DNA of 64,000 nucleotides from contig NC_008571.1 of NCBI RefSeq assembly GCF_000060345.1, forward strand, positions 558,001 to 622,000, given 5' to 3'. This document shows, piece after piece, positions 26,825 to 43,097 of this stretch; position 1 is the stretch's first letter; the number at the start of each line of letters is the position of its first letter. Origin of the DNA: Christiangramia forsetii KT0803. GTDB lineage: Bacteria > Bacteroidota > Bacteroidia > Flavobacteriales > Flavobacteriaceae. The notes beneath the pieces were generated by a model. It worked only from the letters and a program-made list of their open reading frames with translations. It did no database searches and was not told the origin of the DNA. The position numbers and the translations under genes are program-made.

Positions 26825-26838
26825 ACAAATATTCTTTA

Positions 26839-27036
26839 TTACTTTTTTCCATTGATGAAAAAAGTAACCAAAAAAATCTAGGCTTACGAAACTTTATTTA
26901 AATTTATCGTTTACCACCTAAATTTTAGGAACTCGCTACATTTGATTCTGTATGTAGATAAATTCGTTTTGCTCACACAACCTAAAATTTGACGGTTGTT
27001 TCACTTCAAATTTCACAATAAATTTTCGGTAGGCCG
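26839..27036 (+). repeat. Structured dispersed element, copy A
   Basis: A roughly 200-bp element with nested complementary segments. A 5' hairpin TTACTTTTTT / AAAAAAGTAA occupies 26839-26867. An outer stem pairs GGCTTACGAAA (26881) with TTTTCGGTAGGCC near 27024. A middle stem pairs AAATTTATCGT with ACAATAAATTT, and a perfect inner stem pairs AAATTTTAGG (26920-26929) with CCTAAAATTT (26981-26990) around a 51-nt loop. Related copies lie at 35681, 40981 and 42884, all in the same orientation. It fills most of the 390-bp gap between PAP2 and meaB. The remaining 27037-27217 shows nothing I can name. Confidence 0.75.
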
Positions 27037-27217
27037 TTTTAAACAAACCTCAATTATTTAATTTTTAGCAAATATAGGCAAGCTTTAAAAAGTACTAATT
27101 AACCAGAAAGTATAACCTTTTTAAGCCCTTGTTCACGGTTTTTGCCTTATACCAAATACATAAAAAGGCGTTTTATTGTTTTATTGGAAACGGTGTAGTG
27201 TAGAGAAACAAAAAGAT

Positions 27218-28294
27218 CTAAGCCAGGCTTAATAAATGCTTTGCTGCGGCAAAGGCAGTGGTTTTATTATTTTCAATAAGCTGTAATTGTTCTTTTAAGG
27301 CTGTCTTTATTTCAGGAGCATCATAAAACCTGCTTTTGAGGTAATCATTGATAGTTTGGTATAACCAGAATTTATTTTGTTCCAGTCTATTATGCTGAAA
27401 ATGACCATTTTCATCAACCTTAGATTTAAAATCGTTGATCATTTTCCAGATGTCTGATACTCCTTCGTTATAAAGCGCACTACATAATTTCACTTCCGGT
27501 TTCCACTCGCTTTCTTTGGCTGGATAAAGCTGAAGCGCCCTGTTAAATTCAAGCTTGGCTTCCCGGGCTGGGTTTTGATTTTCCCCATCGGCTTTATTGA
27601 TCACAATAGCATCTGCCATCTCCACAATTCCGCGTTTTATTCCCTGCAATTCATCACCGGCTCCGGCAAGTTTTAATAAGAGAAAGAAATCTGTCATGCT
27701 ATGTACGGTGGTTTCACTTTGCCCAACACCAACGGTTTCAATTAGGATTACATCAAATCCGGCAGCTTCGCAGAGAATAATACTTTCCCTGGTTTTTCGG
27801 GCCACACCTCCAAGCGAATCGCCGCTGGGAGAAGGTCTTATAAAAGCTTCTTCTTTGGTTACAAGATTCTCCATCCTGGTTTTGTCTCCAAGAATACTTC
27901 CGTGAGATACAGAACTGCTAGGATCTACAGCAAGAACTGCAACTTTCTTTCCCTGGTCTATAAGATAAGAACCAAAACTTTCAATAAAGGTGCTTTTCCC
28001 TACACCGGGTACGCCTGTAATTCCTATTCTAATTGATTTTTGAGCATGTGGCAATGCACCTTCAATAAGAAATTCAGCTTGTTTTTGATGGGTTTTCTGA
28101 TTACTCTCGATAAGAGTGATCCCTCTTCCCAAGGCCGTTTTATTTCCTTTTAGCAAATCTTGAAGGAGATCTTCTTCAGAAAATTTATTCTTTCTAAAAT
28201 TTCTAATCTTTTTAGCAGATTCGGCGCTAACATTGCCAGAAGCAGGTTTACTTCCAGACTCGCTTAAGGCTGATTTTTGCTGTTCTTTACTCAA
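27218..28294 (-). CDS. meaB: Methylmalonyl-CoA mutase-associated GTPase MeaB
   Basis: A 358-residue G3E P-loop GTPase (MeaB/ArgK) that protects and loads adenosylcobalamin-dependent methylmalonyl-CoA mutase. Motifs are Walker A GITGVPGVGKST (about residues 91-102), AVDPSSSVSHGSILGDKTRM, RPSPSGDSLGGVARKT, VIVETVGVGQSE-like ILIETVGVGQSE, and the base-recognition NKADGEN. The N-terminal about 50 residues are charged and disordered. A cobalamin adenosyltransferase gene lies at 40161, which fits a B12-dependent mutase elsewhere in the genome. No mutase gene is in this window. Confidence 0.93.
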   Translation of the reverse strand: MSKEQQKSALSESGSKPASGNVSAESAKKIRNFRKNKFSEEDLLQDLLKGNKTALGRGITLIESNQKTHQKQAEFLIEGALPHAQKSIRIGITGVPGVGKSTFIESFGSYLIDQGKKVAVLAVDPSSSVSHGSILGDKTRMENLVTKEEAFIRPSPSGDSLGGVARKTRESIILCEAAGFDVILIETVGVGQSETTVHSMTDFFLLLKLAGAGDELQGIKRGIVEMADAIVINKADGENQNPAREAKLEFNRALQLYPAKESEWKPEVKLCSALYNEGVSDIWKMINDFKSKVDENGHFQHNRLEQNKFWLYQTINDYLKSRFYDAPEIKTALKEQLQLIENNKTTAFAAAKHLLSLA

Positions 28295-28315
28295 AATAGG
28301 GCTGAATTTTTATGA

Positions 28316-28323
28316 CAAATTTA
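28316..28323 (-). promoter_or_regulatory. Candidate -7 element of meaB
   Basis: TAAATTTG on the minus strand, 22 bp before the meaB start. It lies in the gap shared with the divergent ohr gene. Confidence 0.5.
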
Positions 28324-28397
28324 TGAATTCGTGTTTCAGGCATCATCAAATGCTTGGTATATTGAAGCAAACTAAATTACTTAAATTATTTTACGCA

Positions 28398-28823
28398 ATG
28401 AAGAATTTATATAAAACTAAAGTAACTACACATGGAGGCCGTAACGGTCACACGCGTAGTGAAGACGGTATTCTAGATATGGAACTCAAAAAACCAGAAG
28501 GTCTTGGAGGTCCGGGTGGAGATTATTCTAACCCCGAGCAATTATTTGCTGCTGGATATTCGGCATGTTATGGAAGTGCTTTAGAAGTGGTCGCTGAAAA
28601 ACACAAAGTAGATCTTGGCGATTATAGTGTAACCGCTACTGTTAAACTTGGAAAAACCGATTCGGGAAACCTTCAGCTTTCAGCAACTCTGGATTCTTAT
28701 ATTCCGGGAGTTGATGTTGAAACCGGTGAAAAGCTGGTAAACGAAGCACACGAGATTTGCCCTTATTCAAGAGCAACTAGGGATAATATAGATGTGACTC
28801 TTAACCTGCTTCTAGACGAATAA
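28398..28823 (+). CDS. ohr: Organic hydroperoxide resistance protein (Ohr/OsmC family)
   Basis: A 141-residue Ohr-type thiol peroxidase reducing organic hydroperoxides. The start ATG 28398 gives the standard N-terminus MKNLYKTKVTTHGGRNGHTR. The two catalytic cysteines are in YSACYGSALE (about residue 59) and HEICPYSRATR (about 121), the Ohr arrangement, and the catalytic Arg is in the first segment (GRNGHTR). An in-frame extension upstream to 28233 overlaps meaB and is not needed. A terminator lies just after it, inside the convergent DUF2911 gene. Confidence 0.92.
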   Translation: MKNLYKTKVTTHGGRNGHTRSEDGILDMELKKPEGLGGPGGDYSNPEQLFAAGYSACYGSALEVVAEKHKVDLGDYSVTATVKLGKTDSGNLQLSATLDSYIPGVDVETGEKLVNEAHEICPYSRATRDNIDVTLNLLLDE

Positions 28824-28835
28824 AAAAGTTTGAAA

Positions 28836-29423
28836 TTATTGAATATAAGAGGTGCCCGCGGGTGCCTCTTTTTGTTTTAAAGGAGTACTTACGCTGGTAT
28901 TATCCCAGGCTAAAACCAGATTCACAAATTCACCATTCTGTTCAAAAAGAATAGTAAATTGTTCCAACCTGGTATCAATTTCTTCTACTGGCCTTTCTAG
29001 AACCAGAGTATCAAATTTAGGATCTCTATATGCCTCTTTATCCAGGTTTATTCCCCATGGATACATTTTAGAATTGAAAATGACTTTCCATGAGTTTTCC
29101 ATAGGGATAGTCCATAAAGAATATTTTCCTGCATTCAGAATACTTCCGTCTACTAGAATATCCTTATTTGTTTCAAAAGTGGTAGCTTCATTTGCTCCTG
29201 TTCTCCAGACTTTATTATAGGGAACAAGTTTTCCGAAGATCGCTCTATCCTTTTTATAAGGTCTGTTATAAAATACTTCTAACTTGAGCCCATCCTGTTC
29301 ATAGGTCACTGTATCTTCAGGACTGTGTGCTTTTGTAGTATATCGAATAATAAAAAATATTATCAACGAAAGAAAAACTATCGCACCGCCAATCTTTAGT
29401 ATAAGGCCAGTATTTCTACTCAT
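28836..29423 (-). CDS. DUF2911 membrane-anchored protein
   Basis: A 195-residue protein with an N-terminal membrane anchor (about residues 7-27) and an extracytoplasmic DUF2911 domain. The domain is recognisable by LEVFYNRPYKKDRAIFGKLVPYNKVWRTGANEATTFE and by YSLWTIPMENSWKVIFN, followed by a beta-rich end. The family's role is unknown. The codons for the C-terminal KEAPAGTS overlap the ohr terminator hairpin, so the two features share DNA. Confidence 0.85.
   Translation of the reverse strand: MSRNTGLILKIGGAIVFLSLIIFFIIRYTTKAHSPEDTVTYEQDGLKLEVFYNRPYKKDRAIFGKLVPYNKVWRTGANEATTFETNKDILVDGSILNAGKYSLWTIPMENSWKVIFNSKMYPWGINLDKEAYRDPKFDTLVLERPVEEIDTRLEQFTILFEQNGEFVNLVLAWDNTSVSTPLKQKEAPAGTSYIQ
28847..28868 (+). 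terminator. ohr terminator inside the DUF2911 coding end
   Basis: AAGAGG and CCTCTT form an outer stem and CCC/GGG an inner stem with small internal loops, followed by TTTTTGTTTT. It lies about 25 bp after the ohr stop and within the last codons of the convergent gene. Confidence 0.65.
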
Positions 29424-29534
29424 GGGTTTTTAAAATAAGCTTTTCAAAAGTTTATCAATAACTAGTTAGTATGCTAATTATTGCTATTAAATGTATGAAT
29501 ATCAAATGAATTTGAAATTTTTTTCGGAATTTTT

Positions 29535-29559
29535 GCAACACGTGACTTTTAGTCTCGTC
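29535..29559 (+). promoter_or_regulatory. Candidate ECF sigma-factor promoter
   Basis: GCAAC at 29535-29539 and CGTC at 29556-29559 are separated by 16 nt and lie 36 bp before the sigma gene start at 29595. ECF promoters commonly have an -35 with AAC and an -10 with CGTC. The layout resembles the stronger pair at 34504-34587, with one base less spacing. It suggests autoregulation. Confidence 0.45.
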
Positions 29560-29594
29560 TTTAAAATGAACTAACCTATTAAAAACCAATTAAA

Positions 29595-30140
29595 TTGATA
29601 CAGCATAAGTTAATAGATGCGTGTAAGCAGAATAGCCGCAGGGCTCAGTTGCAGCTGTACAACAAGTATTGTGACGGGATGTATTATGTGGCATTACGAT
29701 TTATGAGAGATACGATGGAGGCTGAAGATGCCATGCAGGAAGCTTTTATAAAAGCTTTTGAAAAATTACATCAGTTTAACGGAGAGGTCACTTTTGGAGC
29801 CTGGCTTAAACGAATCGTTATTAATAAATGTCTGGACAAGCTGAAGGCAAAAAAGCTGGAACTCGTCGCCATTAACGAGCAAATGTTGGGAACAGTTGAA
29901 GATGAAGAAAACTGGCAGATTGAAGATGGAGTGAGCGTAGAGGAGGTAAAGAAGAAAATAGAAAATCTCCCTGAAAAATATAAATATCCTTTAATGCTAT
30001 ATCTGGTAGAAGGTTATGATCATGAAGAAATTAGTGAAATTTTGAATATCACCCAGGTAGCTTCCAGAACACTGGTGCATAGAGGAAAAAAGAAATTACA
30101 GGACGAACTTAAAACATTGAGCAATGGGACAGGATATTAG
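29595..30140 (+). CDS. ECF-type RNA polymerase sigma factor
   Basis: A 181-residue sigma-70 family ECF factor. Region 2 (about residues 22-90) contains YNKYCDGMYYVALRFMRDTMEAEDAMQEAFIKAFEKL. Region 4 (about 110-170) contains LPEKYKYPLMLYLVEGYDHEEISEILNITQVASRTLVHRGKKKL. It begins with TTG; no better start is seen. The end overlaps the next gene by 17 bp. This is the first gene of a three-gene unit with a membrane-anchored presumed anti-sigma and an exported DUF4097-like protein, a layout frequent in Bacteroidota stress operons. Confidence 0.92.
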   Translation: MIQHKLIDACKQNSRRAQLQLYNKYCDGMYYVALRFMRDTMEAEDAMQEAFIKAFEKLHQFNGEVTFGAWLKRIVINKCLDKLKAKKLELVAINEQMLGTVEDEENWQIEDGVSVEEVKKKIENLPEKYKYPLMLYLVEGYDHEEISEILNITQVASRTLVHRGKKKLQDELKTLSNGTGY

Positions 30141-30735
30141 AGAGATGTTTCGAAACGAGGAGCAGTTGGAGAATGAAAAGCTTAGAAAAGGCCATCAAAA
30201 CAGGTTTGAGGCCAGGCTTGAAAAAGAGCTTCCGGTTAAGAAAAAGAATAGTTACAGACATTTCTTTCAGATTGCAGCCATGTTGGTGGTAGCTTTAGGG
30301 ATAGGTGCTTTTTTCTTTTTCAATAATGGAAAGGATCCTATACAGAATGATAATCAGATTGTCGAAACTCCGGCTGAAGAGCCTGTAAATGATGAAAAAG
30401 TTGAAAACACCAACTACAGGTTAAGTGATGTTTCTCCTGAATTTAAAAAGATAGAAGATTATTATATGGCGAGTGTACATATTCAGCTGGCCAAACTGGA
30501 TATGACTCCGGATAACAAAGAACTTATAGATGCATTTATGAAGAAGCTGGAAACCCTGAGTGAAGAATATATAGCATTAAATGCTGAAATTCAGGAAACC
30601 GGTTTAAATGAGGAAACCGTTGAGGCGATGATCGCGAACTTACAGCTAAGACTGGATCTCCTTAAAAAATTAAAAACAAAGTTGAACGAAATCAAACAAT
30701 CAAAAGACAACAGATATGAGAACTATCAAGCTTAA
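30124..30735 (+). CDS. Presumed anti-sigma factor, single membrane span
   Basis: A 203-residue protein with a charged cytoplasmic N-terminus (about 1-48), one membrane span (about 50-72, IAAMLVVALGIGAFFFF) and an extracytoplasmic helical domain (about 100-203). It lacks a visible zinc-binding HxxxCxxC motif. The role is inferred from position: it overlaps the sigma gene by 17 bp and the next gene by 20 bp, so the three are translationally coupled. The size and topology fit a membrane-held anti-sigma that releases its partner on an envelope signal. Confidence 0.7.
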   Translation: MGQDIREMFRNEEQLENEKLRKGHQNRFEARLEKELPVKKKNSYRHFFQIAAMLVVALGIGAFFFFNNGKDPIQNDNQIVETPAEEPVNDEKVENTNYRLSDVSPEFKKIEDYYMASVHIQLAKLDMTPDNKELIDAFMKKLETLSEEYIALNAEIQETGLNEETVEAMIANLQLRLDLLKKLKTKLNEIKQSKDNRYENYQA

Positions 30736-32119
30736 ATACGTGATACTGTCACTGCTTTTTATCACTGTGGGAAGTTTTGCTCAAACAAAAAAACTGAGCA
30801 AAAACTATAAGACTTCTCAAGATGTTAATGTAGAACTTGACTCCCGTCACACCAATATCATCATCGAAAACTGGGACAGGAACGAGGTGCAAATTGAAGC
30901 CTATCTTGAAGGAGATACCGGTGACAGGGAAATGACTGAAAAATTGCTGAATTCCTGGAAACTGGAAACTTCTGACTCTAATGGAAGAGTGAAGATCAAA
31001 TCTGGCGGCGGTTCCAATTGGACTATGGATATGGGAGAGATAGATTTAGCGATGTCTCATTTACAACCCGCATTAGAAGAATTACCGGATATGCTTGGTC
31101 CTTTAATGGAAAATCTGGTGGGTCCTATCCTGACTAATATTGCTGAAAATCCGCTTCCCCCCGGATTTGCTGAAGATATGAAAGGAATGAAATTCGATTA
31201 TGACGCTTACAAAAAGGATGGTGATAAATACCTGGAGAAATGGGAAGCAGATTTCGAGAAGAAATTCGGGAAGGAATATGAAGTCAAAATGGAAAAGTGG
31301 GCTAAAGAGGTGGAAAAGAATTCTGAAAAATGGGAAAAGGAGTATGAAGTTAAAATGGAAGCCTGGGGCAAGGATTTTGAAAAAGATATGGAAGCCTGGG
31401 GTGAAGACTTCGGAAAGAAGATGGAAGCCTGGGGAGAACAATTCGGGAAACAATTTGAAGCCCAGATGGAAAATGGAGGAAATCGGGTCTTTATCATGGA
31501 AGATGGAAAAGGAGTGAAATCCAAAAGGACCATTAAACTTAAAATTCCAAAGGATGCGAAACTGGAACTTAACGTTCGTCACGGAGAACTGAAACTTGGA
31601 AGTACTATAAAAAACCTGAAGGCCGATCTGTCACACAGTCGGCTTTCAGCTAATCGAATTTCAGGAAAGAATACCAATGTGAAAGCATCGTACACCCCGG
31701 TAAAGGTCGCCTACTGGGACTACGGGGTACTTTCTACCGAATTTGTAAAGAATTGCAGCATAGACAAGGCCGTGAGCATCAAGTTAAATTCCAATTCCAG
31801 TGATGTGGTGATCAATGAACTTCAGAAAACCGGGGTTTTAACCGGTTCTTTTGGGAAATTGGATATTAATAAGCTGGGTTCTGAATTTGAAACCTTAAAT
31901 ATCAGCCTGGAAAATAGCGATCTTGAATTGAATATTCCAGATGCAGCCTTTAATTTTTCTTTCAACGGGATGCAAAGTTCTATTAAACATCCTTCAGGCT
32001 TAAAGTTGAAATCAACAAAATCTTATGATAATGAGATCTTAAACGGTTTTAATAAATCAAGAGATGGGAATTCCAACATTACGATTAAAGCAAATTTTAG
32101 CGATGTATTGATAAATTAA
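30716..32119 (+). CDS. Exported DUF4097-like protein with a Trp/charged repeat insert
   Basis: A signal peptide (about 1-21, ending GSFAQ) is followed by a beta-helical adhesin-like domain of the DUF4097 type in two parts (about 22-90 and 260-467, rich in Asn, Ser and Gly strands). Between them (about 160-250) lies a highly charged helical insert with an imperfect repeat around EKWEKEYEVKMEAWGKDFEKD, about 11 residues per unit, with Trp recurring. The insert may be a long amphipathic helix or coiled coil in the periplasm. It is the last gene of the sigma unit and a likely stress output or sensor of the envelope state. Confidence 0.75.
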   Translation: MRTIKLKYVILSLLFITVGSFAQTKKLSKNYKTSQDVNVELDSRHTNIIIENWDRNEVQIEAYLEGDTGDREMTEKLLNSWKLETSDSNGRVKIKSGGGSNWTMDMGEIDLAMSHLQPALEELPDMLGPLMENLVGPILTNIAENPLPPGFAEDMKGMKFDYDAYKKDGDKYLEKWEADFEKKFGKEYEVKMEKWAKEVEKNSEKWEKEYEVKMEAWGKDFEKDMEAWGEDFGKKMEAWGEQFGKQFEAQMENGGNRVFIMEDGKGVKSKRTIKLKIPKDAKLELNVRHGELKLGSTIKNLKADLSHSRLSANRISGKNTNVKASYTPVKVAYWDYGVLSTEFVKNCSIDKAVSIKLNSNSSDVVINELQKTGVLTGSFGKLDINKLGSEFETLNISLENSDLELNIPDAAFNFSFNGMQSSIKHPSGLKLKSTKSYDNEILNGFNKSRDGNSNITIKANFSDVLIN

Positions 32120-32130
32120 AACCTAGCCAT

Positions 32131-32138
32131 TACATTTG
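32131..32138 (+). promoter_or_regulatory. Candidate -7 element of the M23 peptidase gene
   Basis: TACATTTG fits TAnnTTTG and lies 21 bp before the ATG at 32159, just after the stop of the DUF4097-like gene. Confidence 0.45.
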
Positions 32139-32158
32139 GCTTCCCAAAGCCGAATGAT

Positions 32159-32836
32159 ATGCAAAGTTTTTCTGATTTTTTAAATGAATTGACCTCTGGT
32201 TTTACTCCGGTTATAGGAGGGGAGTATAAACAAGAGGATTTCGCATATATAGATCTTTCTGAAAATAATCGGGATCTTCTAAAATTAGAGGTGGCTTCTT
32301 CGGAAGCATTTTCCATTTTTATTTCTGAATTCCTTAAGAACCGGGATAAGAAAGCCGCTTATGGCGGTTATAATGAACTAAGAACTTTATATAACCGAAG
32401 TCAGCTTTTCAATAATACCGAAGCCAACCGCAATATCCATATTGGTCTTGACGTCTGGGTCCCAGCTTTTTCTGATATTGTGAGTCCGTTAGATGGGAAA
32501 ATCCATAGTTTTAAAGACAATGATAATTTTGGAGATTATGGCCCGACTATTATTCTGGAGCATGTGATAGATCAAAGAAAATTCTATACACTTTACGGTC
32601 ATCTTTCCCGAAAATCACTGGATAATCTACAAGTAGGGGCAGAGATAAAGGCCGGAGACAAGATCGCTGAATTAGGTGATTTTGATGAAAATGGGGATTA
32701 TGCACCACATTTACATTTTCAGATAATGGAAAATATGCAGGACAAAATTGGTGATTACCCGGGGGTAGTTAAAAAAGAGGATCTGGACATGTTTCTAAAA
32801 AACTGCCCGGACCCTAGTTTGTTGTTGAAAATATAG
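32159..32836 (+). CDS. M23/LytM family metallopeptidase
   Basis: A 225-residue peptidase of the LytM type that cleaves peptidoglycan cross-bridges. Zinc-site residues are visible in the HxxxD motif NIHIGLDVWV (about residue 98) and the HxH motif APHLHFQIM (about 182), with the catalytic-core TLYGHLS between them (about 143). There is no obvious signal peptide, which is unusual for a wall enzyme. It may be exported in another way, or act on a cytoplasmic substrate. Downstream starts the repeat-rich segment 32845-33469. Confidence 0.85.
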   Translation: MQSFSDFLNELTSGFTPVIGGEYKQEDFAYIDLSENNRDLLKLEVASSEAFSIFISEFLKNRDKKAAYGGYNELRTLYNRSQLFNNTEANRNIHIGLDVWVPAFSDIVSPLDGKIHSFKDNDNFGDYGPTIILEHVIDQRKFYTLYGHLSRKSLDNLQVGAEIKAGDKIAELGDFDENGDYAPHLHFQIMENMQDKIGDYPGVVKKEDLDMFLKNCPDPSLLLKI

Positions 32837-32844
32837 GAGCTTCT

Positions 32845-32935
32845 ATGAGATTTCTCCCTTTGGTCGAAATGACCTTTTAATTCTGAATTTAATTTGTGCG
32901 TCATTTCGATACGCAGCGTAGCGAAGTGAGAAATC
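32845..32935. repeat. Palindromic dispersed repeat R1
   Basis: About 91 bp. The left arm AGATTTCTCCC...CGAAATGAC and right arm GTCATTTCGA...GAGAAATCTC are largely complementary and flank a T-rich centre. Near-identical copies occur at 32987 and 33380, with rearranged or shorter relatives at 41306, 41433 and 46517. It begins 8 bp after the M23 gene. Confidence 0.85.
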
Positions 32936-32986
32936 TCAACAGTATGGTATTTAGTCGAAGGTTTTCGAATTTAAACTTTTGGAATT

Positions 32987-33077
32987 AGATTTCTCCCTAT
33001 GATCGAAATGACCTTTTTGATTCTCAATTTTATTTGTGCGTCATTTCGATACGCAGCGTAGCGAAGTGAGAAATCTC
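32987..33077. repeat. Palindromic dispersed repeat R2 (borders the GIY-YIG gene on its 3' side)
   Basis: Same unit as R1 with a few substitutions (T-rich centre slightly different). Its right end, AGAAATCTC, is only 2 bp from the stop codon of the GIY-YIG gene on the minus strand. Confidence 0.85.
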
Positions 33078-33079
33078 TT

Positions 33080-33376
33080 TCATAAAATATCATTCTCTAA
33101 AAACTGCCAATTGGAGTTGAATTCTTGAATTAGTTTGTTCTTTTTCTCCCTTCTCCACTTTTTAATAACTTTTTCTCGAAGTATCGCGTCATTCGGATCA
33201 TTATACTTTTCGAAATAGACCAAATGATAACAATTGTATTTGCCAGCGAATGATTCTTTCTTCATTTTACTATCCTGGTAATGCTGGTTTAATCTTATTC
33301 CAAGATCATTGGTTACTCCAACATAGAGAACGGTCTTCTTGTGATTTGTAGTTATATAAACAAAATACTCTTTCAT
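33080..33376 (-). CDS. GIY-YIG domain endonuclease, 98 aa, between two palindromic repeats
   Basis: The start at 33376 gives MKEYFVYITTNHKKTVLYVGVTNDL, a GIY-YIG nuclease core with YVYI/YIG-type residues (YFVYIT, VLYVGVT), the catalytic Arg in LGIRLNQH (about 33) and the Glu in DPNDAILREKVIKKWRREKK (about 68). It belongs to the small single-domain group (URI/UPF0213-like). The gene fits almost exactly between repeats R2 and R3, leaving 2-3 bp on each side. Its AGGGAG ribosome-binding sequence comes from R3. An in-frame extension to 33436 would be coded by the repeat. It could be a repeat-mobilising enzyme, but function is inference. Confidence 0.85.
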   Translation of the reverse strand: MKEYFVYITTNHKKTVLYVGVTNDLGIRLNQHYQDSKMKKESFAGKYNCYHLVYFEKYNDPNDAILREKVIKKWRREKKNKLIQEFNSNWQFLENDIL

Positions 33377-33379
33377 TAC

Positions 33380-33469
33380 AGATTTCTCCCTATGGTCGAA
33401 ATGACCTTTTAATTCTGAATTTAATTTGTGCGTCATTTCGATACGTAGCGTAGCGAAGTGAGAAATCTC
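33380..33469. repeat. Palindromic dispersed repeat R3 (borders the GIY-YIG gene on its 5' side)
   Basis: Same orientation and nearly the same sequence as R1. Three bp separate it from the GIY-YIG start codon, so the promoter and ribosome-binding site of that gene must lie in the repeat. Confidence 0.85.
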
Positions 33470-33512
33470 TTCCGGAAACTTATAAAGATTTTCTAGAACT
33501 CACTATGAGAAT

Positions 33513-33989
33513 CTACTTCATCTTCACAAAAAACGCCACAATAGCAGAAGTAACTACCCCAACCACCAGTGCAAAGAAGAACGACTGAATAATATAAGAA
33601 GTAAGGTTGAAATATTCTTCGGCAGCAGCTTTGGTCATGGCACCGCTTTCTACTGAATATGCAATGATGTTATCAAAATAATCCGGAGTAATAAACTCAT
33701 GTGTGATGTACTGGGCTAATGGAGAGAATATTGCTACAACGATGCTTATTACTATTCCTGAAATAAATCCCTGGCTCCACGTCATTTTACCCTGATAGAA
33801 ATTTTTTCGTTTATCAAGTAAGGCAACTACATACAGAGCGATGGCTACAATAGCAAAGAGGTTGGTATAGATCGCATGTTGCGCGATATTTTCATCATGC
33901 CATCCCAGGCCTTTTTCCAGGAACATCCAAACTAAGGAAATTATTGTAAAGAGAATTCCCCACTTAATTTCGATTGAGAATTTTTTCAT
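33513..33989 (-). CDS. DUF4199 family membrane protein
   Basis: A 158-residue protein with four hydrophobic spans (about 9-27, 37-57, 72-94 and 130-153), matching the DUF4199 pattern (WGILFTIISLVWMFLEKGLGWHD near the start and MTWSQGFISGIVISIVVA in the middle). The function is unknown. It follows the 116-aa membrane protein on the minus strand but is separated from it by a strong terminator, so it has its own promoter. Confidence 0.8.
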   Translation of the reverse strand: MKKFSIEIKWGILFTIISLVWMFLEKGLGWHDENIAQHAIYTNLFAIVAIALYVVALLDKRKNFYQGKMTWSQGFISGIVISIVVAIFSPLAQYITHEFITPDYFDNIIAYSVESGAMTKAAAEEYFNLTSYIIQSFFFALVVGVVTSAIVAFFVKMK

Positions 33990-34053
33990 TGTTTTGATTG
34001 ATTGGTTAGCAATATTAAAATTAGTGAAATTCCTTTATTAATTTCTTCAAACA

Positions 34054-34086
34054 AAAAAAGCTGTCTAAATTAACTTTTAGACAGCC
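34054..34086 (-). terminator. Terminator after the 116-aa membrane protein
   Basis: On the minus strand GCTGTCTAAA pairs with TTTAGACAGC around a 6-nt loop, followed by seven T. It lies about 23 bp after the gene stop. Confidence 0.9.
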
Positions 34087-34108
34087 TTGTGATGAAATGT
34101 GATAAAAC

Positions 34109-34459
34109 CTAAGCGTTTTTATTCAGTTTTTTAGTAGCAAAGAAGCCAGCAAATAATCCAATTCCTGCTAATAAGAAAATAGTTCCGGGGTAGGCGACAT
34201 CTTCATCAATTCCCATGTTAATAGTTAGCATGTTCGCGATAAAAATACCGATTCCAATTCCTGCAAGCAGTAGGGCAAGATTCAAAACAATCACTTTCCA
34301 TACGGGCGTAACATGTTTCTTTTTGCTATAAAAAATGCTTGCATCTGCGCCTTTATCAATAAGAGCTAGGCGTTCCCGGTTTCTGGCGGAAATGTATAAA
34401 TAAAATATACCGAAAACTGTTCCGAAGATAACAGGTAAAACAATGACTTCTGATCCCAT
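34109..34459 (-). CDS. DUF6249-like small membrane protein, 116 aa
   Basis: Three hydrophobic spans (about residues 4-23, 55-77 and 88-107) with a basic loop between the first two (SARNRERLALIDKGADASIF), a pattern seen in DUF6249-type proteins next to ECF sigma genes. The function is unknown. It is divergent from the sigma factor at 34598, and a promoter with the same -35/-10 as the sigma gene points toward it, so it is a likely target of that sigma. Confidence 0.75.
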   Translation of the reverse strand: MGSEVIVLPVIFGTVFGIFYLYISARNRERLALIDKGADASIFYSKKKHVTPVWKVIVLNLALLLAGIGIGIFIANMLTINMGIDEDVAYPGTIFLLAGIGLFAGFFATKKLNKNA

Positions 34460-34503
34460 GATTTTTGATTTTTAATGTGAAAATAATGTTCGTTTGCTAT
34501 TAT

Positions 34504-34529
34504 GACGCTGGGAAATCCAAACCGGTTAC
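34504..34529 (-). promoter_or_regulatory. ECF-type promoter facing the 116-aa membrane protein
   Basis: On the minus strand GTAACC and CGTC are separated by exactly 16 nt and end 45 bp before the gene start at 34459. It mirrors the promoter at 34562-34587; the two -35 boxes form a 12-bp perfect inverted repeat (CGGTTACAAAAA at 34523-34534 and its complement at 34557-34568). Confidence 0.7.
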
Positions 34530-34561
34530 AAAAAAATGTAAATTTATTTCAGAAACTTTTT

Positions 34562-34587: not shown

Positions 34588-34597
34588 TTAAGTAATA

Positions 34598-35185: not shown

Positions 35186-35549
35186 CAGAGAAGACGAGCT
35201 GATGAAGAAGTTGCTGAACGAAGCAGTAACTGATAAGCCTTCAGCAGGTTTTAAGAGTAGAATTATGAAAACGGTGGAGGCAAGGAATGCTGAGATCAAA
35301 CCTTACGAGCCACTAATTTCAAAAACAGGATGGACGAGTATTACGGCTATATTTCTCCTTTCTATGATCGGGCTATCTTATTTGTACGCTGACATATCAC
35401 TTTTTAATGATCTCAGCTTTGAGTTTCCTCACTTAGTAAATATGCCTGAAATCAATCTTTCAAGAAGTATGCAGTATGCCATTGCGTTTGTAGCGCTGTT
35501 CTTCTTGCAGGTTCCTTTTCTGAAAAGGTTTTTGGATAAGGAGTATTAG
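35169..35549 (+). CDS. Presumed anti-sigma membrane protein, 126 aa
   Basis: Charged N-terminus of about 55 residues, then two hydrophobic spans (about 56-74 and 98-115) joined by an outside loop, ending in basic FLKRFLDKEY. No zinc motif is visible. Its role is inferred from the 17-bp overlap with the sigma gene and from the topology, which is common for anti-sigma factors of Bacteroidota ECF genes. Confidence 0.65.
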   Translation: MEKQFDREDELMKKLLNEAVTDKPSAGFKSRIMKTVEARNAEIKPYEPLISKTGWTSITAIFLLSMIGLSYLYADISLFNDLSFEFPHLVNMPEINLSRSMQYAIAFVALFFLQVPFLKRFLDKEY

Positions 35550-35569
35550 TTGTAGATTTTAAAATAGCG

Positions 35570-35630
35570 TCACCCTGAACTTGTTTCAGGGTCTGCTTTC
35601 AAGAGATGCTGAAACAAGTTCAACATGACA
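35570..35630. repeat. REP-like palindrome, CCCTGAAC...GTTTCAGGG type
   Basis: CACCCTGAACTTGTTTCAGG is followed by a spacer and ATGCTGAAACAAGTTCAACATGACA, parts of which pair with each other. Related shorter copies occur at 35995-36042 and 44027-44050. It is located 20 bp after the anti-sigma gene and may act as a terminator or stability hairpin. Confidence 0.6.
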
Positions 35631-35680
35631 AAGGGGAATTTTTTTGGCGACCGTCGTCACCCTGAGATCTGTGTTAAAAA

Positions 35681-36004
35681 ATTATCTAGCGTAGAGAATT
35701 GACGTATTTTTTAAGATGCTTGTTCATTTTTTCCATTGATGAAAAAACGAACCAAAAAAATCTAGGCTTACGAAAGTTTATCTAAATTTATTGTTTAGCA
35801 CCTAAATTTTAGGAACTCGCTATAAAGATTCATCTTTACTGAAGAATTTATTTCGCTCAAACAGCCTAAAATTTCACAGTGCTTTTCACTTCAAATTCTA
35901 CGATAAATTTTCGATAGGTCATAAAAAGAGACTGTTGAAATTAAATATTTCGCTTCATAATTACCAAATTTAAAAAATATGAGAATGGTAATTTATTTCA
36001 GGGT
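35681..36004 (+). repeat. Structured dispersed element, copy B (with flanks shared with copy C)
   Basis: The core (35722-35920) has the same nested pairing as copy A: 5' hairpin with GTTC...GAAC, outer arms GGCTTACGAAA / TTTTCGATAGGTC, and inner stem AAATTTTAGG (35804-35813) / CCTAAAATTT (35865-35874) around a 51-nt loop. Homology to copy C continues on both sides (35681-35721 and 35921-36004), about 320 bp in all, ending in a REP-like TTTCAGGGTCT. It fills most of the 655-bp gap before secA. Confidence 0.75.
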
Positions 36005-36070
36005 CTCCGGTAAAGATGCTGAAACGAGTTCAGCATGACAGGTTACTAGAGAAATAAATTGACTAAATAA

Positions 36071-36104
36071 AAAAGATCCTGAAGCGATTCACTTCAGGAT
36101 TTTT
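36071..36104. terminator. Bidirectional terminator downstream of secA
   Basis: ATCCTGAAG and CTTCAGGAT form a perfect 9-bp stem around CGATTCA, with A run before and T run after. It is about 100 bp after the secA stop; the heptamer array at 36114 lies between. Confidence 0.85.
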
Positions 36105-36113
36105 AATTTTATC

Positions 36114-36197
36114 TACCGACTACCGACTACCGACTACCGACTACCGACTACCGACTACCGACTACCGACTACCGACTACCGTTTACCGTCTACCGTC
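36114..36197. repeat. Tandem heptanucleotide array, unit TACCGAC
   Basis: Nine exact copies of TACCGAC plus four further bases (36114-36180), then degenerate copies to 36197. The array ends 6 bp from the secA stop codon. On the secA coding strand the unit reads GTCGGTA. Confidence 0.95.
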
Positions 36198-36203
36198 GAA
36201 TGT

Positions 36204-39200
36204 CTATTCCTCAACTAGCACCCAATCTCCTTTGTCCAGAAGCGGAATTGCCTGTTTGAATTTCATTGTTTTACTCTCACCACTCATCACATTTTTCACA
36301 GTGACTTTATCATTTCTTCCGATTTTTGGTCGATCTCTAACGATAGTTTCGGTAACTTCAGGTTGTTGACGCTGAGTATTTCCAGCAGCCCTGCTTTGTG
36401 CAGCTCTTTCATCCATATTCGGAATTTCTTCCTTCCTGGTTTCTACCTTTTCTTTTGACTTCGTCTGGCGTGCTTCATGTATGCTTGGAGCGCCAGTCGA
36501 TGGAATTTCTCCTTTGAAAAGGAAAGACATCACATCTCTATTCACATTTTCAAGCATTACTTTAAAAAGTTCAAAAGCCTCAAATTTATAGATCAATAAT
36601 GGATCTTTTTGCTCATGCACCGCCAGCTGAACACTTTGCTTTAACTCATCCATTTTTCTCAGGTGAGTTTTCCAGGCGTCATCAATAATGGCCAGGGTAA
36701 TATTCTTTTCGAAATCTTTGATTAGTTGTTTACCTTCAGTTTCATAAGCTTTTTCAAGATTGGTAACTACACTAAGCGTTTTGGTTCCATCTGTAAATGG
36801 CACTGAAATTCTTTCGAAATTATTTCTTTCATCCTCATGAACCTGCTTGATTACAGGGAAAGCACGTTCAGCATTATGAGACATCTTTTCATCATAGTGC
36901 TTGTAAGCCGACTTATATACTTCACCGGCTAGCTTCTGAGCATTCATTTTCTTGAACTCTTCTTCTGAAACCGGAGAACTCATAGAGAAATTCCTGATCA
37001 GTTCAAATTCAAAATTCTTGAAATCTTCCGCCGCTTTATTAGTTTCAGTAATAGATTCTGAAATATCAAAGATCATATTCGCAAGATCCACTCTAAGTCT
37101 TTCTCCGAATAAGGCATGGTAACGACGCTTGTAAATCACTTCCCTTTGCGCATTCATTACATCATCATACTCCAGCAATCTTTTACGAACCCCAAAGTTA
37201 TTTTCCTCTACTTTTTTCTGGGCTCTCTCGATTGATTTTGAAATCATAGAATGCTGAATCACTTCACCTTCTTCAAGACCCATACGGTCCATAAGCTTGG
37301 CGATCCTTTCAGAGCCGAATAAACGCATCAGGTTATCTTCCAGGGAAACATAGAACTGCGAGCTTCCCGGATCACCCTGCCGACCGGCACGACCTCTTAA
37401 CTGACGGTCTACACGTCTGGAATCATGACGCTCGGTACCTACAATGGCCAAACCACCAGCTTCCTTCACTTCTTTACTTAACTTAATATCGGTACCACGA
37501 CCTGCCATGTTGGTAGCAATGGTTACAATTCCTGAGTTACCCGCTTCAGCAACAATATCTGCCTCCTGTTTGTGACGTTTCGCGTTCAAAACATTGTGAG
37601 GGACATTTCTAAGCTTCAGCATCCGGCTTAAAAGCTCAGAAATCTCAACAGAAGTTGTACCAATAAGCACCGGTCTTCCTGCATTGGAAAGATCGGTCAC
37701 ATGATCTATTACAGCGTTATACTTTTCTCTTTTGGTCTTATAAACCAAATCTTCTTTGTCATTTCTTGCGATTGGCCTATTGGTAGGAATTTCAACCACA
37801 TCCAGCTTATAGATCTCCCATAATTCACCTGCTTCAGTTACCGCTGTACCCGTCATACCAGACAGTTTGCCGTACATTCTAAAGTAATTCTGAAGGGTTA
37901 CGGTTGCGAAGGTTTGGGTAGCATCCTCGATCTTTACATTTTCCTTCGCCTCGATTGCCTGGTGTAAACCGTCACTGTAACGACGACCTTCCATGATACG
38001 ACCTGTCTGCTCATCAACAATTTTTACTTTATTATCGATCACTACATATTCCGTATCCTTTTCGAAGAGGGTATAAGATTTTAATAACTGGCGAAGCGTA
38101 TGAATACGCTCACTCTTAACACTATAATCCCTGAAAAGCTCTTCTTTTTTCTCTGCTTCTTCTTCTGCAGGAAAACCTTCTTTTTCGATCTTGGCGATCT
38201 CCATACCAATTTCCGGCATCACGAAGAAATCCGGTTCATCTTTACCGGAAAGAAACTCAATTCCCTTATCGGTAAGATCTATCTGGTTGCTTTTTTCTTC
38301 AATAGTAAAGTATAATTCAGCATCAACCTTAGGCATTTCACGGTTGTTATCCTGCATGTAATGATTCTCAGTCTTCTGCAGTAACTGTTTAATACCTTCT
38401 TCACTAAGGAACTTAATTAATGCTTTATTTTTAGGCAAACCACGGTAGACTCTCAGTAATTGAAATCCACCTTCTTTGGTATCACCTTCTTTTATAAGTT
38501 TTTTGGCTTCGGAAAGTACCTTTACCAAATGTTTACGCTGAACTTCTACAATATTGGCAATTGCAGGTTTCAGCTCCATAAATTCGTGGGTATCTCCTTT
38601 TGGAACAGGTCCGGAAATAATCAATGGAGTACGGGCATCATCTACTAATACCGAATCCACCTCATCCACGATTGCATAATTATGGGGTCTTTGCACAAGA
38701 TCATCCGGAGCGTGAGACATATTATCCCTCAAATAGTCAAAACCAAATTCATTATTGGTTCCGTAGGTGATATCAGCATTATAGGCTTTTCTACGTGCTG
38801 CGGAATTGGGACGGTGATAATCCACACAATCTACACTCATTCCATGAAACTGGAAAATAGGAGCCATCCATGCACTATCTCGTTTAGCCAGGTAATCATT
38901 AACCGTTACCAGGTGAACACCATTTCCAGTAAGCGCATTTAAATACATTGGAAGGGTTGCCACAAGGGTTTTACCTTCACCGGTTTGCATCTCAGCGATC
39001 TTACCCTGGTGCATGGCCACACCACCAATAAGCTGGACATCATAATGTACCATATCCCAGGTTACCGGTTTACCGGCAGCATCCCAGGAGTTGCTCCAAA
39101 TGGCATGGTCGTCTTCTAAAGTAACATAGTCTTTCTCTGCAGAGATCTCTCTATCAAAGGAAGAAGCTTTTACTTTTAGTTGAGTGTTATTTACAAAACG

Positions 39201-39563
39201 TTTCGCGGTTTCCTTTACGGTCGCGAAAGCTTCTGGCAAGATATCGTTAAGAACAGCCTCAGAAATTTCATAAGACTTCTCTTTTAGTGCATCAACTTCA
39301 GCATAGATATCTTCCTTTCGGGTGATATCGTCAATTTCATCTGCTTCCTTATTTAAGGCAACAATCTTATCTTCAACTTCTTTAGTCGCTTCAGCGATCT
39401 TCGCTTTGAATTCGGAAGTCTTAGCTCTGAGTTCATCAAGGCTGAGAGCCTCAAATTCAGACTCAAGAGCCTTTATTTTGTTAACTATGGGTTGTATTTC
39501 TTTTACGTCTTTTTTCGACTTATCGCCTACGAACGCTTTTAATACAGAATCTAAAAAACTCAT
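36204..39563 (-). CDS. secA: Preprotein translocase ATPase SecA
   Basis: An 1119-residue SecA, about 220 longer than in E. coli, as usual in Bacteroidota. It drives protein export through SecYEG. Walker A is [15 protein letters not shown] (about 190), Walker [14 protein letters not shown] (about 300), and motifs [24 protein letters not shown] and [18 protein letters not shown] follow (about 690-735). Extra residues occur in the N-terminal third (about 30-80) and around 330-480. The C-terminus lacks the Cys/His zinc motif that binds SecB and ends in a distinct basic/acidic tail. The gene is monocistronic. Confidence 0.97.
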
Positions 39564-39637
39564 ATTGGTTTTTTTATTTTTTCAATTATAGTCTTAATAA
39601 TGATATGCAGATATATTTGTTGTTTTTAACCAAATCC

Positions 39638-39664
39638 ACCCTTCGACAGGCTCAGGATGTCAGA
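39638..39664. repeat. REP-like palindrome, CCTTCGACAGGCTCAGG type
   Basis: A short copy of a family also seen at 41525, 41980, 42956, 44150 and 46302, each built on CCTTCGAC and GCTCAG. It lies between secA and the DUF2795 gene. Confidence 0.55.
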
Positions 39665-39732
39665 TATCTTTTAAAACTTAAATATTATAATTAAAGTTCC
39701 AAATCATATTTATTAAGGGGTTCAAATTTAAG

Positions 39733-39759
39733 CAAAAAAAAAGCCTCATGAATGAGACT
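39733..39759 (-). terminator. Terminator of the DUF2795 gene
   Basis: On the minus strand AGTCTCAT pairs with ATGAGGCT (one G-U) around a 2-nt loop and is followed by nine T. It lies about 28 bp after the gene stop. Confidence 0.8.
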
Positions 39760-39786
39760 TTTCCCTAATTTTTGCGTGTTGTCAAT

Positions 39787-40008
39787 TTAATATTCATCCT
39801 CATTCCAAAGGTAATCTTCATCGGTTGGATAATCCGGCCAGATCTCCTCAATAGAATCATAAGAGTCTCCCTCATCCTCAATAGCCTGCAAATTTTCAAC
39901 TACCTCTAATGGAGCTCCGGTTCTAATTGCGTAGTCTATTAACTCATCTTTTGTTGCCGGCCATGGGGCATCACTTAAATAGGATGCTAATTCTAAAGTC
40001 CAATACAT
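39787..40008 (-). CDS. DUF2795 domain protein, 73 aa
   Basis: A small acidic protein made almost entirely of one DUF2795-type helical domain: LELASYLSDAPWPATKDELIDYAIRTGAP followed by an Asp/Glu-rich tail (DSIEEIWPDYPTDEDYLWNEDEY). The family looks like a mini-DNA-binding or degradation-regulating fold but has no proven function. It is monocistronic, with its own terminator downstream. Confidence 0.85.
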   Translation of the reverse strand: MYWTLELASYLSDAPWPATKDELIDYAIRTGAPLEVVENLQAIEDEGDSYDSIEEIWPDYPTDEDYLWNEDEY

Positions 40009-40160
40009 TGATTAATCGGGTTTTAAATTTTGGCAAAAATAATTTTTTTGCCTTAATAGCCAAGAAAAAAATCTATTATTTATACAATAATGATAAGAAC
40101 ATAATGATTTCCACTAATATTTGCAATATTCGCAAAGGATTTTTGTGAAATTAGAAGTAA

Positions 40161-40733
40161 TTAGGATTTCTTAGGAATCCATTGAATTTCTTCAGCTTGC
40201 AATTGTTTAGACAACTTCCGTGCCAGCACAAAAAGGTAGTCTGAAAGTCGGTTTAAGTAGATAAGAACTTTTTCGTCAAAGGTTTCAATGTCATATAAAG
40301 CACTGGAAAGTCTTTCAGCACGACGGCACACACAGCGTGCTATGTGACAGAATGACACGCTTTGGTGACCACCAGGGAGAATGAAGTGCGTCATTTCCGG
40401 TAGTTCTTCATTCATTTTATCAATCCCTTTTTCCAGTTTTTCAATATCCTCGTCTGAAACTTTAGGGATATTCAAACGTTCTTTTCCATTTTTCAAGGTA
40501 GCTTTTTCAGGATCGGTAGCTAGAATAGCACCAATGGTGAATAGTCTATCCTGAATTTCAGTAAGAAATTCTTTAGTTTGTTTATCTGTATCCTGATCTC
40601 TTAGAAGACCAATATGTGAATTTAGCTCATCTACGGTTCCGTAGCTTTCTATTCTTATATGATGTTTAGGGACGCGTGTACCTCCGAATAACGAAGTTGT
40701 TCCTTTGTCACCTGTTTTCGTGTATATTTTCAT
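40161..40733 (-). CDS. Cob(I)yrinic acid a,c-diamide adenosyltransferase (PduO type)
   Basis: A 190-residue PduO/MMAB-type ATP:corrinoid adenosyltransferase that makes adenosylcobalamin. Signature parts are KTGDKGTTSLFGGTRVPKHHIRIESYGTVDELNSHIG (1-43), the ATP-contact FILPGGHQ (about 118-125) and RCVCRRAERLSSAL (about 133-146). It supplies the coenzyme for B12 mutases and fits with MeaB at 27218. The gene is alone on the minus strand; the region upstream is occupied by repeats. Confidence 0.92.
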   Translation of the reverse strand: MKIYTKTGDKGTTSLFGGTRVPKHHIRIESYGTVDELNSHIGLLRDQDTDKQTKEFLTEIQDRLFTIGAILATDPEKATLKNGKERLNIPKVSDEDIEKLEKGIDKMNEELPEMTHFILPGGHQSVSFCHIARCVCRRAERLSSALYDIETFDEKVLIYLNRLSDYLFVLARKLSKQLQAEEIQWIPKKS

Positions 40734-40980
40734 GTGTGTGTTTCCTTTTCAGATTCCTATAATATGGATGTTACCAAATGTAACGAAGATTCAGCAAATA
40801 GCCATTGGTGGATTGTTTGAAAATAATGATGAGATTTCTCCTTTTGCTGTATTACGCATTGAAATGACAGTGAGAGGTGTTCGTTGTGGTTTACCTTTTG
40901 AGATGCTGAAATATCCCGATAGCCATCGGGACAGCATGACGATTAATAATGAACGTGACCCTGAAACCTATGATTAAAAG

Positions 40981-41288
40981 TTTTATCTAACGTAGGAATT
41001 GACGTTTTTTCTAGATACTTGTTCATTTTTTCCATTGATGAAAAAACGAACCAAAAAAATCTAGGCTTACGAAACTTTATCTAAATTTATCGTTCAGCAC
41101 CTAAATTTAAGAAACTCGCCATTGTGGATTCAATTTTGCAGAAGAATTTGATTAGCTCAAACAGTCTTAAATTTCACGTTGCTATCACTTCAAATTTTAC
41201 AGTAAACTTTCGATAGGCCATAAAAAGGGACTATTGAATTTAAATATTTCGCCTTTATAATTACCATTTTTAATTTATTTCAGGGTCT
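40981..41288 (+). repeat. Structured dispersed element, copy C
   Basis: About 305 bp homologous to copy B. Core 41021-41219. The inner stem AAATTTAAGA (41103-41112) / TCTTAAATTT (41165-41174) differs from copies A and B at two positions, and both changes are matched by compensating changes in the other arm. The outer arms are GGCTTACGAAA / TTTCGATAGGCC. It lies in the 830-bp gap between the adenosyltransferase and the 55-aa gene. Between 40740 and 40980 only degenerate repeat fragments (about 40829-40875 and 40905-40942) are visible. Confidence 0.75.
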
Positions 41289-41305
41289 TTACTTTTCGTA
41301 CTTGA

Positions 41306-41391
41306 GTCATTTCGACCAAAGGGAGAAATCTATTTCAAGTAAGTAAAAATAGTGAGATTTCTCACTTCGCTACGCTACGTATCGAAATGAC
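41306..41391. repeat. Palindromic dispersed repeat R4 (arms in opposite order)
   Basis: It carries both arms of the R1 family in inverted orientation and swapped order: GTCATTTCGACC...GAGAAATCT first, then GAGATTTCTCACTTCGC...TCGAAATGAC. It is what one would see from the space between two consecutive R units. A degenerate arm follows at 41433-41487. Confidence 0.75.
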
Positions 41392-41432
41392 AGGTAAAAG
41401 GGGGATTTTGTGTCCTGGATTGTAGGAGTATG

Positions 41433-41487
41433 TTTGGAAATAATGATGAGGTTTTTCATTTCGCTGTGCTGCGTGTCGAAATGACTT
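41433..41487. repeat. Degenerate copy of the R1-family arm (R5)
   Basis: ATGAGGTTTTTCATTTCGC followed by GTGTCGAAATGAC is a single, altered arm of the GTCATTTCGA repeat family. Confidence 0.5.
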
Positions 41488-41524
41488 GAAACTAAAGAGG
41501 ATCTTCAAATTTAGAAGATTTAAG

Positions 41525-41556
41525 GCGCTTCGATCCTTCGTCAGGCTCAGGGTTCA
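41525..41556. repeat. REP-like palindrome, CCTTCG...GCTCAGGG type
   Basis: CGCTTCGATCCTTCGTCAGG followed by CTCAGGGTTCAG; a member of the small palindrome family also at 39638, 41980, 42956, 44150 and 46302. It lies just beyond the 3' end of the 55-aa gene. Confidence 0.5.
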
Positions 41557-41566
41557 GCGGGGCAGG

Positions 41567-41734
41567 TTATTGGCTATCGCTCTCCTGCTTTCTTTCTAAA
41601 TACCTTCTCCTAAAGTTTCTATTTTTTCGCTCTTTTTTAATCTTTTTACTACGGCGTGAATTCCAAAGAAAGTAAGCTAAAAAAACGGCTATAATACTAA
41701 GATAAATCCAGGTTTCCTGGTCTAAATCAATCAT
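41567..41734 (-). CDS. Small single-span basic membrane protein, 55 aa
   Basis: An ATG frame on the minus strand (41734 to 41567) encodes MIDLDQETWIYLSIIAVFLA and on through a hydrophobic helix (about 9-24). The tail is strongly basic (RRSKKIKKERKNRNFRRRY, about 27-45). The layout is a typical one-span membrane protein with a cytoplasmic Arg/Lys tail. It lies in a gap otherwise full of repeats, and no family is recognised. The open frame, membrane pattern and absence of repeat sequence inside it argue that it is a real gene. Confidence 0.6.
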   Translation of the reverse strand: MIDLDQETWIYLSIIAVFLAYFLWNSRRSKKIKKERKNRNFRRRYLERKQESDSQ

Positions 41735-41979
41735 TGTGAATGTCTTAATAAATACAAGGTAAGAAAGATTTTTTTGAAGTTCAAAAGAAGTTTGGGGATT
41801 GGCAGTTAATAGTCGGGAATTAGATATTTAAAGTGAAATTTCAAACTTATCGTTACTGCGTTCGCAGGGTAGTGGAGTATGATAGTTTCTCGAAGTTCTA
41901 ATCTTGAGGTTGCTGCGCTTTGTTCCACTTTGCTCACAAAGAGGAATAAATAAGGATTATTATAAAGTTTTTATTGACT

Positions 41980-42008
41980 GGCCTTCGACTGCGCTCAGTC
42001 TGACAGTA
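41980..42008. repeat. REP-like palindrome, CCTTCGACTGCGCTCAG type
   Basis: GGCCTTCGACTGCGCTCAGT followed by CTGACAGT. The rest of the 41735-42070 gap shows only further short hairpins (for example CTGCG-TT-CGCAG near 41857) and no gene. Confidence 0.5.
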
Positions 42009-42070
42009 TTTATAGGTATATTAATAAATATTCCAAATTAAATATGGAAACCCGAATGTTATTTCAATTT

Positions 42071-42126
42071 TGCTCACTGCTCACTGCTCACTGCTCACTG
42101 CTCACTGCTCACTGAGTACTGAGTAC
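42071..42126. repeat. Tandem heptanucleotide array, units TGCTCAC and TGAGTAC
   Basis: Six TGCTCAC units followed by two TGAGTAC units. The array overlaps the 3' end of the ABC ATPase gene: its stop codon and last residues (S-T-Q) are encoded by repeat units. Confidence 0.95.
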
Positions 42127-42810
42127 TGTTTTTCTTTCGTCACTTTCCACCATTCCATCTTTAAGCCGTATGATCCTGTGCGCATGTTCCGCAATCTCCT
42201 CTTCGTGGGTTACCAGGATCACCGTATTTCCGTCTGCATGAATTTGATCAAAAAGCTTCATGATCTCCACAGAAGTTTTAGAATCAAGGTTTCCGGTTGG
42301 CTCATCTGCAAGAATGATAGAGGGTTTATTAACCAAAGCCCTTCCAACAGCTACACGCTGTCTTTGACCACCAGAAAGCTGATTAGGTTTGTGATCCATT
42401 CTATCTCCAAGGCCTACACTTCTTAATACATCTTCAGCCCTTTCAACTCGTTCAGATTTTGAAGCTCCGGCATAGATCATAGGTAAGGCTACATTATCCA
42501 GAGCAGTAGTTCTGGGAAGCAGGTTAAAAGTTTGAAAAACAAAGCCGATCTCTTTATTTCTAATTTCGGCAAGTTCATCGTCACTCATCTGGCTGGCATC
42601 TTTTCCGTTCAATATATAGGAACCGGAAGTTGGAGTGTCTAAACAACCTAAAAGATTCATCAAAGTAGACTTTCCAGATCCTGAAGGTCCCATAATGGCC
42701 ACATATTCTCCGCGATCTATGTCCAGGTCTATCCCTTTTAAAACTTTAACTACTTCCTGTCCCAGAGGGAAATCCCTCGTGATCGTACGAATTTCTATTA
42801 CTTTGCTCAT
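42109..42810 (-). CDS. ABC transporter ATP-binding protein (LolD/MacB-like)
   Basis: A 233-residue ABC ATPase of the LolD/MacB group, usually working in lipoprotein release or MacB-type efflux. Walker A is GPSGSGKST (about 40-48), signature [16 protein letters not shown] (about 143-158), Walker [12 protein letters not shown] (about 165-175), and H-switch [13 protein letters not shown] (about 200-212). No permease gene is adjacent, which is unusual. The C-terminal end ([10 protein letters not shown]) is coded partly by the heptamer array, so the true ancestral end may have been replaced by repeat-coded residues. Confidence 0.9.
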
Positions 42811-42883
42811 TCAGACTTATTTTTCAATGGTAAGACGTGAAATTAGGATTTTTGTTACAAAAATTTGGTAATTGAGTGGTTCA

Positions 42884-43097
42884 GTTCATTTTTTCCATTG
42901 ATGGAAATTACATTCCTCTCCCTTCGGTCGTCGGACGTAATCAAAATCTAGGCTTACCCTTCGACTGCGCTCAGGGCAGGCTATATTTTATCTAAATTTA
43001 TCGTTTAGCACTTAAATTTCAGGAACTCGCTTTGCTCAAACAGCCTGAAATTTTACGGAGCATTCACTTCAAATTCTATGCTAAATTTTCGAATGCC
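42884..43097 (+). repeat. Structured dispersed element, copy D (shortened, with an inserted REP-like palindrome)
   Basis: The 5' TTCATTTTTTCCATTGATGG segment, middle arm AAATTTATCGT, and inner stem AAATTTCAGG (43014-43023) / CCTGAAATTT (43044-43053) match the family. The inner stem carries a base pair (C-G) different from copies A-C. The loop is only 20 nt. The outer 5' arm is interrupted by a CCTTCGACTGCGCTCAGGG palindrome (42956-42982). It fills most of the gap upstream of the ABC ATPase gene. Confidence 0.7.

Follow-up and report, generated by a model that had tools for sequence, protein, structure and literature searches.

Repetitive extragenic palindromic (REP) sequences are palindromes of 20-40 bp, one end of which bears a GTAG or CGTC tag (PMC3733652). 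The TnpA-REP genes of subclass 2.6 are reported to belong mostly to Bacteroidetes and to be flanked by atypical secondary structures that have copies elsewhere in the genome, and YIH[QN]NP is the motif given for this subclass (PMC6006769). The element described here occurs in four copies, A to D, in a window of Christiangramia forsetii KT0803 DNA, that is, the whole stretch of 64,000 nucleotides that was analyzed (positions 558,001 to 622,000 of contig NC_008571.1). Like REPs, which have been proposed to move as single-stranded DNA, it is an intergenic palindrome, but it measures about 200 bp (core, about 170-210 bp) as opposed to 20-40 bp, and its core has no fixed GTAG or CGTC tag; the subclass 2.6 structures are set beside it by description and not by sequence. 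It resembles miniature inverted-repeat transposable elements (MITEs) in being short, non-coding, multicopy, intergenic, and present or absent at orthologous sites, yet differs from them in that no cognate transposase was found and in that it has a nested, covarying fold. Neither transposon-like terminal inverted repeats nor a target-site duplication was seen by eye at its boundaries, which are blurred by divergence and by extra inserted DNA. The attC sites of integrons are folded sites with a variable central loop and are sometimes arrayed; the element is likewise folded around a variable central loop and sometimes stands in arrays. We class it with the MITE- and REP-like elements, and no published description of it was found among the titles and abstract openings listed from one literature collection. 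With moderate confidence, we read it as a non-autonomous, non-coding mobile DNA palindrome whose folded single strand is probably recognized by an enzyme acting in trans.

The element is present in multiple copies. The contig of 3,798,465 bases was searched with R1, a covariance model built from an alignment (A1) of 42 copies that include A, B, and C, and 16 type I copies were found (15 full copies and D). Eleven of these are on the plus strand and five on the minus strand; the single orientation claimed in the original prediction holds within the window, where all four copies are on the plus strand, but not genome-wide. No called open reading frame (ORF) of at least 70 amino acids (aa) lies over any of the 16 copies, with a 25-base tolerance, with overlapping ORFs removed, and with two of the loci only about 1 kb long. 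R1 finds five further, weaker elements in this genome, namely, three of type II (two of them read, the third read in part), one of type IV, and one candidate near type II copies (G000:C1:3229812-3229995, 42.6 bits). Types II and IV differ in sequence from type I and are still matched at 49-64 bits, and a type III element was read in the sequence at 2084968 of the genome. Matches extend to 19 of 24 genomes of the same genus (G002 and G005 match only over short pieces) and to 20 of 39 in a wider set, made up of these 19 and one weak match outside the genus. In a survey of the family with one genome per genus, its own included, 80 of 149 genomes matched at an E value of 0.001 or better, with five candidates scored per genome and many matches spanning the 5' module only. 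A survey of the phylum, with stricter filters and 20 candidates scored, gave matches in 12 of 118 genomes: its own, four others of the family, and seven outside the family, the best of which reached 73 bits. The search of this genome and its relatives that had been proposed along with the original prediction returns a family that is widespread in flavobacteria.

Orthologous sites are occupied in some species and empty in others, and some insertions are common to related species. Site A (PAP2-MeaB) is occupied in 2 of 16 genomes and empty in 14, with an empty gap of 4-13 bp as extrapolated from protein alignments. At site B, compared in 15 genomes, type I is present in C. forsetii only and G015 carries another type, while the gap in G012 gave no profile match, though only its ends were displayed. 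Site D, compared in 12 genomes, has five copies, three remnants, three short empty gaps, and one long gap without a profile match. Copy D of the window is decaying. Its 5' hairpin is broken, the 3' arm having been replaced, its outer arm holds a small palindrome, and its 32 body pairs comprise 24 Watson-Crick pairs, 1 G-T pair, and 7 mismatches. Ten body pairs vary among the five D orthologues, and pair 139-207 alone is Watson-Crick in all five. Among the remaining nine, the window copy has seven broken pairs and one G-T pair, and the last pair is broken in each of the four copies from other species. As a separate observation, the site B gap of G005 and G021 (L189 and L206) holds a small reading frame for a putative GIY-YIG-like protein.

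The core opens with a 5' hairpin, which is followed by an A-rich linker, a short box (ATCTAGGC here and ATCAAGGC in other species), and a long interrupted hairpin that usually ends in TAGGCC and has its variable loop between AACTCGC and GCTCAAACAG. The four repeats and the stems quoted for them in the original prediction were all found in the sequence. R1 places the cores of three copies that belong to its own training set at 26836..27036 (A, 202.8 bits), 35720..35921 (B, 209 bits), and 41019..41220 (C, 213.9 bits). Their 5' hairpins lie at 26839-26867, 35722-35752, and 41021-41051, and the box of B lies at 35760-35767. The inner stem is AAATTTTAGG/CCTAAAATTT in both A (26920-26929 and 26981-26990) and B (35804-35813 and 35865-35874) and AAATTTAAGA/TCTTAAATTT in C (41103-41112 and 41165-41174). 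Copy D (42884..43096), which is outside the training set, is matched at 42971-43096 only, with 97.6 bits, and has the inner stem AAATTTCAGG/CCTGAAATTT (43014-43023 and 43044-43053). The architecture said to be shared by all four copies is thus full-length in A, B, and C, but not in D. Likewise, the starts first given for B and C (35681 and 40981) take in part of an outer arm. Going by match ranges, the long form of B spans about 35654-36039, with a left outer arm at 35654..35719 (long-form matches mostly start at 35654-35656) and a right outer arm region at 35922..36039 (most of them stop at about 35990 to 36039), and that of C spans about 40954-41273. Outer arms are present in 9 of the 16 genome copies. 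Since G004 has the same outer palindrome without the core and with other repeats at its center, the core sits inside another, larger palindrome. In several copies the outer repeats of the long form start with CGTCACCCTGA, and these repeats may themselves be CGTC REPs.

The loop of the 5' hairpin is complementary to the box over seven contiguous pairs in the CCTTGAT/ATCAAGG types, five in type III, and three in type II and in the window's own type. In A1 the five proposed loop-box pairs form in 90-94% of cells, with double changes in one of the five, and in some types loop and box change jointly. This pattern, seen in several types with the box downstream of the A-rich linker, is no more than suggestive of an H-type-like pseudoknot. 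The 5' hairpin and box of the D copies in G016 and G022 are of a different version from those in G010 and G012, and the body is similar.

The evidence for compensatory change in the element is strong. The paired differences first quoted between copies are carried by the full-length copies, such as TTAC/GTAA in the 5' hairpin of A against GTTC/GAAC in B and C, and the covariation survives the alignment of more copies. A1, for which the 42 copies were chosen within the genus without D, G009, partial matches, duplicate loci, or one of three G007 copies that are almost identical, has double changes in 14 of 32 pairs according to RNAalifold. With the pairs of the 5' hairpin and the loop-box pairs added, 18 of 46 pairs are doubly changed, compared with 11.7 after shuffling (1 of 500 shuffles as high), and 110 cells, compared with 26.2 ± 5.3 (reached by 0 of 500). 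For A2, a second alignment that spans genera, all 55 matches with E values up to 0.1 in 30 selected loci were aligned by fitting to the model; these include weak matches, two duplicates, the window copies, and types II and IV. A2 has double changes in 37 of 42 pairs and 297 doubly changed cells, compared with 75.3 ± 7.4 (reached by 0 of 500 shuffles), although in both alignments related copies are not independent. The fold of copy B has a z score of -5.10, and none of 200 shuffles was equally stable.

The mismatches that remain in the stems bear on the question of whether DNA or RNA folds. The non-Watson-Crick cells of the A1 body comprise 28 G-T, 24 A-C, and 33 others, or 16, 15, and 22 when distinct types are counted; those of A2 comprise 33 G-T, 32 A-C, and 136 others in the body and 8, 12, and 23, respectively, in the 5' hairpin. 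As a control, the acceptor and T stems of ten distinct tRNAs, identified by ARAGORN in the fetched loci, gave 9 G-T, 0 A-C, and 3 others. Selection on an RNA would be expected to favor G-U, and there is no excess of G-T in the element; therefore, the fold probably matters as DNA rather than as RNA. Such a tally of G-T and A-C mismatches offers a simple means of telling DNA folding from RNA folding. The element itself could pass for a non-coding RNA.

A structured RNA, for example a 3' untranslated region element or a small RNA with a selected fold, is nevertheless the alternative that survives best, and we consider it unlikely. It would account for the strong compensatory change and for the pseudoknot-like pairing of loop and box, and convergent ORFs flank 8 of the 16 copies, or 7 without a doubtful ORF of 91 aa next to C; the conservation of the D core above its flanks in four other species, described below, also fits it. 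Against these points stand the patchy occupancy of orthologous sites, the spectrum in which G-T is no commoner than A-C, unlike that of the tRNAs, and the lack of any Rfam match at threshold in the window; such a match would have told against the original prediction. A permissive Rfam scan of four loci gave 38 matches, all under threshold. Elements were hit by two of them: by snoZ267 in L020 (20.7 bits against a threshold of 43) and, at the type II element of L023, by RAGATH-19 (25.3 bits against 85.6).

Movement of a REP-like element by a REP-associated tyrosine transposase (RAYT), including those of the Bacteroidetes TnpA-REP subclass 2.6, appears more doubtful still. The published description of that subclass fits, with its Bacteroidetes genes and its flanking structures that have genomic copies (PMC6006769). 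However, at the PF01797 threshold used, C. forsetii has a single Y1 transposase gene (154 aa), at the locus of which R1 gave nothing better than an E value of 0.99, and 8 of 24 genomes of the genus have a Y1 match. The RAYT-like genes of six genus genomes, some of which carry the YIH[QN]NP motif, are flanked, as seen by eye, by other palindromes, which at L332-L337 are of the CGCGATTGCATCGCG type in G017 and G002 and of the CCTCACAGGTTT..AAACCTGTGAGG type in G011, G015, G016, and G021; neither in these six genomes nor in C. forsetii is a cognate RAYT flanked by the element. In the fetched Y1 loci, R1 matched strongly once, about 4.4 kb from a RAYT-like gene of G017, and weakly once (23 bits; E value, 0.004), at a distance of about 1.2 kb from a Y1 gene of 149 aa in G004. 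As to the tag, the 42 aligned copies read ATAG (23), GTAG (15), or neither (4) near the 3' end, and none has GTAG or CGTC in its first 45 nucleotides.

The original prediction held paired change to be direct evidence that folding is selected or needed for spread. Template switching within inverted repeats can copy a mutation of one arm into its partner and could also yield paired changes, so these are not direct proof of selection. That the changes are mainly mutational, with folding not selected, is very improbable: such switching would give double changes without wobble intermediates, in keeping with the lack of G-T enrichment, but R1 also finds types II and IV of different sequence (49-64 bits), loop and box change together in some types, and the window D copy has lost pairs instead of being corrected. 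The second half of the claim, that folding is needed for spread, agrees with most of the evidence and is favored because the copies act as mobile elements and the window D copy decays.

Several points weigh against a mobile DNA palindrome. A mobilizing gene was looked for and none was found; no target duplication is definable, and at sites A and D the insert is longer than the core. The difference between the element and tRNA spectra (Fisher p, 0.009 on cells) comes from a small control, biased since ARAGORN selects paired stems, and from cells of related copies that are not independent. At site D, all 6 pairs of the four non-window copies show stronger conservation in the core than in either flank (with the window copy included, the core ranks first in 7 of 10 pairs of the five orthologues), and these four copies keep 29-31 of 32 Watson-Crick pairs, which fits constraint at that site. 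They look modestly constrained or younger, and because their core keeps its pairs and is better conserved than its flanks, the element may have a role at some loci.

As a mobile DNA palindrome, the element would move from one intergenic site to another, its folded single strand, or a cruciform, probably being recognized by the trans-acting enzyme, and the inserted copy would be inherited and might then decay. We infer that the fold acts as DNA and that a nuclease or transposase acts in trans. More tentatively, the family may represent a class of mobile DNA elements that is common within a single bacterial family and relies for its spread on single-stranded DNA of complex fold. Such elements would have a swappable 5' hairpin module with a loop that pairs with a downstream box, would insert into other palindromes, and would be driven by a so far hypothetical enzyme. 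Should folding be required for spread as DNA, these repeats, with their many natural compensatory variants, would make a natural test case for folded single-stranded DNA as a substrate of transposition.

Two other possibilities were rejected. Integron-like cassettes, prompted by the tandem spacing in G001, were dropped because no cassette-like genes lie between the copies there; the ORFs of at least 60 aa in the array at L056:6282-8560 are three of 65-77 aa that overlap repeats. The G001 array (L056:4200-8560) alternates type I and type II elements, and its main part is without cassette-like genes. The four candidates in G017 for a loop that harbors a gene, or for an element split in two, proved to be two at contig ends and two truncated or degraded copies.

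In G052 (L294 and L295; G052:C1:2128000-2164000), a polysaccharide locus (NeuB, GT2, Wzy, and sugar transferase) has tandem copies on its flanks, all of which point the same way as the polysaccharide operon; in the genus of the window, too, copies adjoin the wza/wzc locus. Direct repeats at polysaccharide loci could aid the exchange of such loci. A general link is not claimed because, among the matches listed and as judged by eye, in 9 of 13 other genera no Bac_transf gene has a copy closer than about 21 kb. A tandem repeat was looked for in L281 and none was found. In the window, short tandem repeats CTACCGACTACCG (CTAACG in relatives) run from 36112 onwards by the 3' end of SecA, and they vary in length among several genomes of the genus.

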